Shown: piece by piece, positions 40,948 to 45,561 of the stretch
Layout of the letters: each line of letters begins with the position of its first letter
How positions within the stretch are numbered: position 1 is the first letter of the stretch
NCBI GenBank assembly: GCA_945860705.1
Contig: CAMART010000001.1
Location: 1-64,000, forward strand
Direction: 5' to 3'
From: Chitinophaga pinensis
GTDB taxonomy: Bacteria; Bacteroidota; Bacteroidia; Chitinophagales; CAMDFR01
Length of the DNA: 64,000 bases
Notes under the pieces: generated by a model
What the model was told of the DNA's origin: nothing
Database searches by the model: none
Seen by the model: only the letters and a program-made list of their open reading frames with translations
Made by a program: the position numbers and the translations under genes

Positions 40948-43068
40948 ATGAAAAAAATATACGTTTATTTACTTTTTCATTTTATGTTTTTGAGCATAAG
41001 TTTTGCTCAAACATTTACTTCTGCAGGTGCTAATATACCAGATCATGGTGCACCGCTTCAAGTACTGATAAGTGTGAGTGCATTAGACTCTAGCTCACTT
41101 ACTAGCAATTATGGATTAGAAACAGTTTGTATCAATATAAATCATACAGCAGACAGAGATTTGGCAGTATACTTAATGAGTCCTACAGGTATGACAGTAG
41201 AGCTCACAAGTGGCAATGGTGGATTTAATGATAATTATACCAATACATGTTTTAACATGTCGGCTACACAACTCATCACAGCTGGCACTCCACCATATAC
41301 AGGCTCTTTTGTACCAGAACATAGCATTGGCTCATTTAATAACGGACAGGCAGGTAATGGTGTATGGCGACTAATAGTAACCGATTATGTAGTAGGTGAT
41401 ACTGGTTCAGTTCTAAATGTTTCTCTTGCATTTGGATATACTCCTTCACCTCCACTGAGTGTATCTGTAGGGCCTTGTGATGACTATAGTCCTAGCGGAT
41501 GTGCTTGTCCTGGTGGTGATAGCTCTTGTTGGCTAGTACCTGATATCCTCACGGCTACAAGCATGCTTCAAGATACATTTTGGCAGAGAGAAAGTTTTAA
41601 TATACTAAAAGTAACTAACTCATGCGCCAATATTGGTTTTGGACCTATGGAAATAATTGGTACTGGAATCTGGATGTGTAATGATAGCATAGTAGGTGGT
41701 CCAGGTCTTTGTCCTGATGGGCAGTATGCCAAACAACAAGTGAAACAACGAATATATATCAAAGAAGCTGGTGTGGGATTTTTTGATTTTAAAGATACCT
41801 TGGTTGGCACCATGCAGTTTCACTCAGACTTAGGACACAACCACTTGCATGTAGATGATTGGGCAGTGAATACCCTCAGACTTAGAGGCCCCGAATCTGA
41901 TGCTAGTAAATGGCCAATAATAGGTACAGGAAATAAAGTAAGTTTTTGTATTTATGATCATTTAATCTGTGGAAGTACATTTGAAAACTGCGAATACGAA
42001 GGCGATATGAATGTATATTCAAGTCTAGTAAATAATGGATTAGGAACAGGTTTCTCATCATGTGGCAATACCGTACAAGGCTTGTCAGTAGGCTACTCCG
42101 ATGTTTATGACTGGTCACTAGATGGTCAAGAAATCACTTTTGATTCTATATGCAATGGGAATTATTATTTAGTAAGTGAGTTTGACCCAAGTCATCGTTT
42201 TGTAGATTTAGATAGAAGTAATAATGTAAGTGTAGTGCCAGTAAAACTAAAAAATCAATTAGCAAATTGTTGTAAATCTGCTTTTAGAATTGACACCCTC
42301 AACTATGATGAAAATATTTATCAATTTGTAGATATGACTATGCCTATACCTGATAGATGGAACTGGGATTTTGGAGATGGACGTACAGATACTAACCAAT
42401 TTCCTATTATCGATTTTAATGATTCTATTTCTCTCAATATTTCCCTTATCACCAATAATAATAGTGGCTGTGGCGACAGTACCTCTAAAAATATTTTAGT
42501 ACATAGAGATTTTAGCGATACCTGTAGAAATACATTTACTTTTTCTATGATAGAATATGGTTTTACAACTCATTTACTTATTCTGGGTGATACTAGCATC
42601 ATTGATAGCATATATATAGTTATGGATGATACCTGTGGCAGATATTACGTTTGGAATAGCGGCTTAGTCTCTTTAAACAGTGATGGATGTGCAATGGGAC
42701 ATGGTTGGATAACTAATGACTCTATTCATATAACTCTCTTTTATAAAAACTCATGTATATATACTTTTGATACAGTTTACAATGTTTTACAGAGCATAAA
42801 TAACATAGAAAAAAATAATTATAATTTCAGCATCGCACCTAACCCTGCAAAAAACGAAACCGTATTTTCATATGAACTGTCAAATACAAGCACAGTAAGC
42901 ATTTCGCTGATAGATGCTACAGGCAAATTGATAGAAAATATCATAGAAAATAATAAGCAACTAGCTGGAAAACATCAGTATAAAATAAATATTCCAACTG
43001 CTGGATTTTATATTTTAAAAACTAAAATAGACCAGACGGAACATATTGATAAAATTTTCAGTTATTAA
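40948..43068 (+). CDS. T9SS-secreted protein with P-domain and lysyl-oxidase-like domain
   Basis: 706 residues from the ATG at 40948 (signal MKKIYVYLLFHFMFLSISFAQ). Residues about 25-150: proprotein-convertase P-domain (GNGVWRLIVTDYVVGDTG). Residues about 190-430: lysyl-oxidase-like domain with GHNHLH (His297, His299, His301, the copper HxHxH), GNKVSFC (Lys330) and QGLSVGYSDVYDW (Tyr387), aligning with the human LOX Lys320/Tyr355 cofactor pair. A PKD-like part follows (WNWDFGDG), and the last 80 residues are a type A T9SS sorting domain (SIAPNPAKNETVFS). It would be secreted and possibly oxidise protein lysines; activity not shown. Confidence 0.85.
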   Translation: MKKIYVYLLFHFMFLSISFAQTFTSAGANIPDHGAPLQVLISVSALDSSSLTSNYGLETVCININHTADRDLAVYLMSPTGMTVELTSGNGGFNDNYTNTCFNMSATQLITAGTPPYTGSFVPEHSIGSFNNGQAGNGVWRLIVTDYVVGDTGSVLNVSLAFGYTPSPPLSVSVGPCDDYSPSGCACPGGDSSCWLVPDILTATSMLQDTFWQRESFNILKVTNSCANIGFGPMEIIGTGIWMCNDSIVGGPGLCPDGQYAKQQVKQRIYIKEAGVGFFDFKDTLVGTMQFHSDLGHNHLHVDDWAVNTLRLRGPESDASKWPIIGTGNKVSFCIYDHLICGSTFENCEYEGDMNVYSSLVNNGLGTGFSSCGNTVQGLSVGYSDVYDWSLDGQEITFDSICNGNYYLVSEFDPSHRFVDLDRSNNVSVVPVKLKNQLANCCKSAFRIDTLNYDENIYQFVDMTMPIPDRWNWDFGDGRTDTNQFPIIDFNDSISLNISLITNNNSGCGDSTSKNILVHRDFSDTCRNTFTFSMIEYGFTTHLLILGDTSIIDSIYIVMDDTCGRYYVWNSGLVSLNSDGCAMGHGWITNDSIHITLFYKNSCIYTFDTVYNVLQSINNIEKNNYNFSIAPNPAKNETVFSYELSNTSTVSISLIDATGKLIENIIENNKQLAGKHQYKINIPTAGFYILKTKIDQTEHIDKIFSY

Positions 43069-43711: not shown

Positions 43712-44464
43712 ATGAAAACTAAATCTATATATCTTTTATTAGCAGTAGTTATTTTTATTGCTAGTTCTTGTGGCAAAAATAGTGGCAAGGGAACCGTAAA
43801 TTTAAAAATGGTACCTGAAGCTTCTGGAAATCCAGTACAATTCAAAACGGCTGTTTATACAGATAACGATGAAGATGTAAGATATAGAGTAGATAATTTT
43901 CAGTTTTACATTTCAAATATAAAATTTATCAAAGATGATAATTCTGAAGTCGTTTTTTCAAAAGCTGATGATGTAAAACTTTTTCTATGGAAAGAATATA
44001 TAAATGACCAAGAAGAGTTTAAAATTCCCTCTGGAGATTACTCAAAAATTGTTTTTACGCTAGGTTTAACTCCAGATATCAACGCTACAGAACCTGGAGA
44101 CTACAATACCGATAAGCCATTGGGAGCTAATAGTGGTAATTATTGGTTGATGAGTAATAGTTATATTTATTCTAAATTTGAAGGCTTTATAGATACAAGT
44201 AATACTATGGGTGCTACATTAGATAACTCATTTTTATTTCATATAGGTGGTGATGGCTTTAGTAAAGAAGTTACTATAATCAAGGATTTTACAATTTCAA
44301 GAGATGAAAGTACCGAGTTACCTATATCTATTGAATTTAATAAGTTTTGGAATGGCCCTAGTACATTAGATTTAAAAACTGAATTACAAACTCATACCCT
44401 CAACAAACCAGATCTTGCAACAAGATTTTTAAATAATTTTGCATCAAGTTTTAGTGCTGAATAA
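43712..44464 (+). CDS. MbnP-family lipoprotein
   Basis: 250 residues. Lipobox IASSC. The core has RVDNFQFYISNIKFIKDD, LGLTPDINATEPGDY and NYWLMSNSYIYSKFEG, the blocks of MbnP proteins. In Methylosinus, MbnP binds copper through a kynurenine made from Trp by its diheme partner MbnH. The next gene, overlapping by one base, encodes the MbnH-like enzyme, so the pair is probably functional. It occurs without methanobactin genes here. Confidence 0.85.
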   Translation: MKTKSIYLLLAVVIFIASSCGKNSGKGTVNLKMVPEASGNPVQFKTAVYTDNDEDVRYRVDNFQFYISNIKFIKDDNSEVVFSKADDVKLFLWKEYINDQEEFKIPSGDYSKIVFTLGLTPDINATEPGDYNTDKPLGANSGNYWLMSNSYIYSKFEGFIDTSNTMGATLDNSFLFHIGGDGFSKEVTIIKDFTISRDESTELPISIEFNKFWNGPSTLDLKTELQTHTLNKPDLATRFLNNFASSFSAE

Positions 44465-45561
44465 TGTTTAGTAAAAAAGAAATATATATCTTCTTAATTA
44501 CAGCAAGCATAATTGGTGTCGGACTAGTATTGCCCTCTTGCAAACCTGAACCAAAACCATGCGAAAGTATAGGAGCTACGCCATATGTTTGGGAAAAACC
44601 ATTTCGTTTTCCGGACATGAATATACCTGCAGATAATCCTATGACTATAGAAGGAATAGAGCTAGGGAGATTTTTATTTTATGATTCTACTTTATCTAAA
44701 AATAGTGTTCAATCTTGTGGTACTTGCCATAAGCCTGAATTTGGATTTAGCGATATAGGCAATGTAAAAAGTTTTAATGCAAATGGTATACTTACTAAAA
44801 GAAATACGCCCGCATTATTAAATGCAGGATATCAAAATAAATATTTTTTTGATGGCAGAAGTGCTACATTGGAAGAATCAATAATAGATGCAACCGATCA
44901 TGAGCTATTTACAGACTGGACCAATAACGTAAACTATCTTAAAAATGATACTTTTTATGCCAATATGTTTGAAAAAGCATTTGGATGCGATGCTGTGACT
45001 AAAGAAAATATTGTGAAAGCTATGGCTCAGTTTATACGTACTATCGTTTCTAGTGGCAATTCAGAAATTGATACTAAATTTTTTAGAACCAATAATTACA
45101 CCTTACTAAATCCTGCGGCAGCTAGAGGTTTTCAAATTTTTACATCAGAAAGATCCGATTGTTTTCACTGTCATTTTACTAATATTCTCACTACTGATAA
45201 TTTATTTCATAATAATGGAGTTCAAAATTCAGGAGGCACTTTCAATTTTTCTGATAATGGACGAGGCACTATTACTGCTGTACAAACAGACAACGCCAAA
45301 ATGAAAACTCCTACGCTTAGAAATATAGCACTCACACCTCCATATATGCATAATGGGCAATTTAATACACTGAGAGAAGTAGTAGATTTTTATGCGGATA
45401 GTGTGCACTTGTCACCTACTCTAGATGCAAACATGTTGCATTCAGGAAATATTAGGTTAAACCTCACTAATAGCGAGCGAGATGATTTAATTGCTTTTTT
45501 GGAGACTATGACAGACACATTTGTTATAAATAATCCAAAATATAGAAGTCCTTTTAAATAA
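44464..45561 (+). CDS. Diheme cytochrome c peroxidase-like protein (MauG/MbnH family)
   Basis: 365 residues. Hydrophobic anchor with lipobox-like LPSC, and two heme c motifs, CGTCH (Cys85-His89) and CFHCH (Cys233-His237). TPALLNAGYQNKYFFDGR and MKTPTLRNIALTPPYMHNGQF are typical of the family. MbnH oxidises a Trp of MbnP to kynurenine through a bis-Fe(IV) state. The gene starts within the MbnP stop (TAATG). Confidence 0.9.
   Translation: MFSKKEIYIFLITASIIGVGLVLPSCKPEPKPCESIGATPYVWEKPFRFPDMNIPADNPMTIEGIELGRFLFYDSTLSKNSVQSCGTCHKPEFGFSDIGNVKSFNANGILTKRNTPALLNAGYQNKYFFDGRSATLEESIIDATDHELFTDWTNNVNYLKNDTFYANMFEKAFGCDAVTKENIVKAMAQFIRTIVSSGNSEIDTKFFRTNNYTLLNPAAARGFQIFTSERSDCFHCHFTNILTTDNLFHNNGVQNSGGTFNFSDNGRGTITAVQTDNAKMKTPTLRNIALTPPYMHNGQFNTLREVVDFYADSVHLSPTLDANMLHSGNIRLNLTNSERDDLIAFLETMTDTFVINNPKYRSPFK

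Follow-up and report, generated by a model that had tools for sequence, protein, structure and literature searches.

The window analysed in this study, a 64,000-nucleotide stretch of DNA from a Bacteroidota genome, carries on its forward strand a CDS (positions 40948–43068; start codon ATG at 40948, stop codon ending at 43068) for a 706-aa protein composed of a P-domain, a lysyl-oxidase (LOX) domain, a PKD-like segment, and a T9SS tail. It begins with a probable signal peptide (residues 1–21, MKKIYVYLLFHFMFLSISFAQ; 41010 being the last nucleotide of the segment 40948–41010), which was recognized by eye as a hydrophobic stretch followed by AQ and has counterparts in the homologues. The P-domain (residues ~22–165; 41011–41442) matches PF01483 over residues 59–161 (1e-8), and in a fold search its AlphaFold model resembled the P-domain of furin/Kex2 (Z ~13). 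The LOX domain spans ~260 residues (177–437; 41476–42258) and is supported by profile, fold, and conservation, and the PKD-like segment is weak. A T9SS type A sorting domain occupies residues 631–703 (42838–43056), scoring 34.3 bits against TIGR04183 (cut-off, 23) and 31.9 bits against PF18962 (cut-off, 27; 1.6e-7). The preliminary description of this DNA was accurate in its gene boundaries, and both the P-domain and the sorting domain that it had proposed were recovered.

The gene order in the window is a PorP/SprF-family gene, the LOX gene, a NifU-like gene, and genes for an MbnP-family putative copper-binding protein (43712–44464, forward strand; PF20243, 2e-23) and an MbnH/MauG-like di-haem enzyme paired with it (44464–45561, forward strand; PF03150, 7e-40), and this order is conserved in the sister species. 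The more specific models TIGR04052 (MbnP) and TIGR04039 (MbnH) remained below their cut-offs at these two genes. A scan for promoters and terminators returned a number of sites not above that in shuffled sequences.

The lysyl-oxidase assignment extends over the whole of residues 177–437, beyond the segment recognized by Pfam. PF01186 scores 25.3 bits against the protein, above its cut-off of 20.4, so that the HMM check proposed earlier was positive in score; the match is partial, covering only residues 371–438, and therefore cannot by itself verify the histidines and the lysine, for which homologue alignment, profile–profile comparison, and fold were needed. A profile built from four relatives (A2) aligned with a classical LOX profile over 163 columns (probability, 98.3; E-value, 1.4e-14), the latter consisting of four rows, namely a human LOXL2 fragment, Streptomyces, Gemmatirosa, and a Bacteroidota protein (L002), and the HxHxH motif, the Lys, and the Asp-x-Tyr were paired between the two. 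The only match of A2 among PDB sequences was human LOXL2 (3.3e-5); the same search with the single window protein found no LOX. The AlphaFold model of the LOX domain alone (pLDDT 83.9) matched LOXL2 (5ze3) with a Z score of 14.2 (rmsd 2.7, 168 aligned residues), far above the next unrelated fold (Z 7.3), and that of the P-domain plus LOX region (pLDDT 81.7) gave a LOXL2 match of Z 14.0. The LOX domain noted in the preliminary description is thus borne out, and the comparison with LOXL2 suggested there agrees in global fold; in both models the loop directly preceding HxHxH has a pLDDT below 50, and these models do not confirm the geometry of the predicted active site.

The residues expected to form the active site were found at exactly the positions proposed earlier and fall in LOX-equivalent columns of the alignment and of the profile–profile comparison. 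They comprise a predicted copper-ligand motif, HNHLH (H297, H299, and H301; 41836–41850), the predicted LTQ lysine K330 (41935–41937; equivalent to LOXL2 K653), and the predicted LTQ tyrosine Y387 (42106–42108; equivalent to LOXL2 Y689). Together with D385 (42100–42102), these residues are invariant in 42 sequences, i.e. the window protein and 41 Bacteroidota homologues, which excludes a chance occurrence. The claim that the putative copper and quinone residues are intact is therefore well founded at the level of alignment. In the window protein the motif occurs as FHSDLGHNHLH, with a His five residues before HxHxH and not three as in animal LOX. Because the first His of the animal type (H289 in LOX) is absent at that spacing, the protein was not filed as an animal LOX/LOXL; this His (H289/H623) is missing from other bacterial LOX as well (PMC4448552).

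The same genome encodes a second LOX-like protein, L009 (L095:8792-10678 = G000:C6:52791-54680, forward strand), with the same arrangement of a P-domain, a LOX-like region, PKD, and a T9SS tail. When columns at least 97% conserved over the 42 sequences were taken as near-invariant (n = 25, L009 left out), L009 was found to retain 19 of them, and the six lost are exactly H297, H299, H301, K330, D385, and Y387, indicating that these six residues form one catalytic unit. A random loss of 6 of 25 positions would include all five residues nominated beforehand in 20 of 177,100 cases (~1e-4), a figure that overstates independence in that the three histidines are neighbours. Most of the divergent long relatives still retain HxHxH and D-x-Y, and the best relatives of L009 in 41 genomes (its own genome counted) included no dead form. 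We read this pattern as suggesting that selection maintains copper/quinone chemistry in the window protein and that L009 has lost it, which would make L009 a secreted pseudo-lysyl-oxidase. The window LOX itself is very probably catalytic.

The prediction that the protein is a secreted T9SS cargo with a P-domain also fared well: in addition to the sorting domain scores, the genome encodes SprA (TIGR04189, 2434.7 bits), and the PorP/SprF-family gene adjoins the LOX gene. Export to the cell surface is thus probable on the basis of these signals. The same N-terminal P-domain was seen by eye fused to CotH-kinase-like proteins at five loci of the window's genus (L007, L008, L010, L011, and L013), and it looks like a module common to exported proteins in this genus.

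A search with a subfamily profile across 398 genomes of the order to which the window belongs gave matches, mostly full length, in 66 of them, and PF01186 alone detected 4 of 395 genomes of the phylum, a comparison that is only rough given the different genome samples. PF01186, which covers only the C-terminal half here, was rejected as a survey tool because it is too insensitive. Homologues are also present in genomes of Cytophagales type and of Flavobacteriia; when species genomes were scanned, 17 loci were recovered (Runella, Dyadobacter, Spirosoma, Arcicella, Lewinella, Kaistella, Lutibacter, Limnovirga, and MAGs). Among 44 scanned proteins (including the window protein and the dead paralogue), PF01186 was detected in 39, the P-domain in 29, and the T9SS tail in 21; CARDB profiles matched 13. 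In a phylogenetic tree, the Bacteroidota LOX grouped together and were separated by a 98/93 branch from the classical LOX, which were represented by four long-branched rows with HTU-LOX absent. The window protein is a member of a Bacteroidota LOX subfamily that stands apart from classical LOX. The earlier statement that secreted bacterial LOX are known from only a few cases proved too narrow, given the 66 genomes of one order and the Bacteroidetes LOX already published (PMC4448552).

Several individual loci deserve mention. L002 (genome G045) is a Bacteroidota protein of more than 1100 aa with a classical, animal-like LOX domain (PF01186, 114.5 bits) and, by eye, PKD-like and dockerin-like stretches. 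Genome G398 contains a tandem pair of LOX-like genes (L081:6414-10500, reverse strand) and further copies elsewhere. In Limnovirga soli (L041/L096, genome G126), the LOX-like matches are split between two different open frames, and the matched stretch contains two TGA codons, possibly reflecting a disrupted gene or a frameshift.

The genes surrounding LOX differ between groups. The window genome has only two MbnP genes. Each is separated from one of the LOX paralogues by less than 4 kb, and the sister species has one MbnP gene so placed; L009 likewise lies downstream of an MbnP gene and a MauG-like gene (together L095:5546-7260), and the gene for a T9SS YHYH protein. MbnP is a possible functional neighbour of the window LOX. 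A MauG-family gene also adjoins LOX in another genome (G748; L087:6565-7650). No LOX–MbnP linkage was found within 38 kb in the LOX-bearing genomes searched outside the genus, a range shortened in places by contig ends, and an LOX–MbnP/MbnH operon as a general feature was rejected, the linkage being confined to the window's genus. In Cytophagales-type relatives with a tail-less P-domain LOX, the next gene downstream encodes a secreted protein belonging to one similarity cluster at 12 loci (L027, L028, L029, L030, L031, L032, L033, L034–L037, and L038). These proteins are often 571 to 3214 aa long, some having SdrD_B or T9SS-type features, and by position they are candidates for a LOX substrate or scaffold. 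Another secreted product of the window genome contains a collagen-like GPAGATG stretch (L074; G000:C30:33779-33955). Collagen was rejected as a substrate: this sole collagen-like protein of the genome is unlinked to LOX, and no evidence supports such a role.

From the domains, the fold, the conservation, the co-loss in L009, the T9SS signal, and the presence of SprA, we infer that the window protein is, with good probability, a competent copper- and LTQ-dependent amine oxidase of the LOX family that is exported by T9SS to the surface or the medium. It would be made with a signal peptide and then exported to the cell surface or released, would bind copper through H297, H299, and H301, and would form its quinone cofactor from K330 and Y387; primary amines, either peptidyl lysine or small amines, would then be converted to aldehydes with release of hydrogen peroxide, and the P-domain and PKD-like region may serve as non-catalytic binding or folding modules. 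This reading is supported by the archaeal HTU-LOX, another LOX homologue, for which activity was shown after refolding in the presence of Cu2+ (PMC6452851), and by the same-genus orthologue, which has the same gene order and in which the LOX domain, the most conserved part, is 79% identical, against 52% in the tail. Secretion ahead of copper loading would require copper from outside, and this counts against the explanation. The opposite reading, a LOX-fold pseudoenzyme or structural module in which a CARDB-related beta-sandwich serves for binding and has no oxidase activity, draws on the existence of L009 with the same architecture in the same genome, on the CARDB matches among the homologues, and on CARDB structures that match the fold at Z 6–7; it is nevertheless very improbable, as the LOXL2 match is far above these and the six residues that do not vary across the window protein and 41 homologues are exactly those that L009 lost.

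If the enzyme is active, cross-linking of surface or matrix proteins is its likeliest role, which is only a guess. Oxidation of small amines or polycations for nutrition, detoxification, or H2O2 production, with no surface cross-linking, is a serious contender, if somewhat short of an even prospect: HTU-LOX has relaxed specificity, oxidizing taurine, glycine, aminoglycosides, and polymyxin (PMC6452851), and the genes next to the window LOX suggest no particular protein substrate, but the surface-type multidomain build with P-domain and PKD and the large secreted neighbour in Cytophagales-type relatives suit a protein substrate somewhat better. A role in copper handling, in which LOX works with MbnP/MbnH, for instance as a surface oxidase that carries copper and is served by MbnP, would account for the proximity of the MbnP genes in the window genome and the sister species and for the MauG-family neighbour in G748; we consider it unlikely, since linkage within 38 kb is lacking in the other LOX-bearing genomes searched, the NifU gene intervenes, the linkage may be inherited or due to chance, and the TIGR scores are below cut-off. 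The most elaborate proposal, that the T9SS-exported subfamily cross-links the surface proteins of its own cells and is tuned here by the pseudo-LOX and by MbnP/MbnH-supplied copper, appears decidedly unlikely.

Surface cross-linking by a T9SS-exported LOX, if true, would represent an extracellular-matrix chemistry parallel to collagen cross-linking in animals. The physiological role of bacterial LOX is still open in the literature (PMC4448552, PMC6452851), and the subfamily, which combines invariant catalytic residues, export signals, and a natural dead sister, offers a testable case for lysine-aldehyde surface chemistry and bears on the origin of the animal enzyme. It could also yield new protein-cross-linking enzymes.

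A 2015 paper reported LOX from Bacteroidetes and other bacteria; most of these proteins consist of a single domain, their catalytic residues are conserved, and they had no assigned function (PMC4448552). In the open-licence literature we found no paper on a T9SS-exported LOX or a functional account of such genes. The window protein resembles human LOX/LOXL2 (PF01186, 5ze3) in fold, in the order of HxHxH, Lys, and Tyr, in D-x-Y, and in a downstream NN region, but identity is only ~20%; its domain has an extra N-terminal part and its own set of cysteines, and the protein has no SRCR domain, propeptide, or animal first His and is predicted to be exported to a bacterial surface. The LOX of Haloterrigena turkmenica (HTU-LOX) and Streptomyces are homologues with HxHxH and Lys/Tyr, and HTU-LOX also has a hydrophobic signal peptide (PMC6452851); Streptomyces and Gemmatirosa LOX, however, lie on the opposite side of the 98/93 branch, and prokaryotic LOX mostly consist of the LOX domain alone (PMC4448552), in contrast to the multidomain window protein. 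The LOX of Arcicella, Spirosoma, Lewinella, Runella, and Dyadobacter (L027–L037) share the P-domain plus LOX arrangement and the six catalytic residues at 31–35% identity, but lack the T9SS tail and are adjoined by the secreted-protein gene, whose product in some carries SdrD_B and T9SS domains. LOX itself is already known from Bacteroidetes, and the window protein is a variant with a T9SS surface-protein architecture, which is common in one bacterial order.
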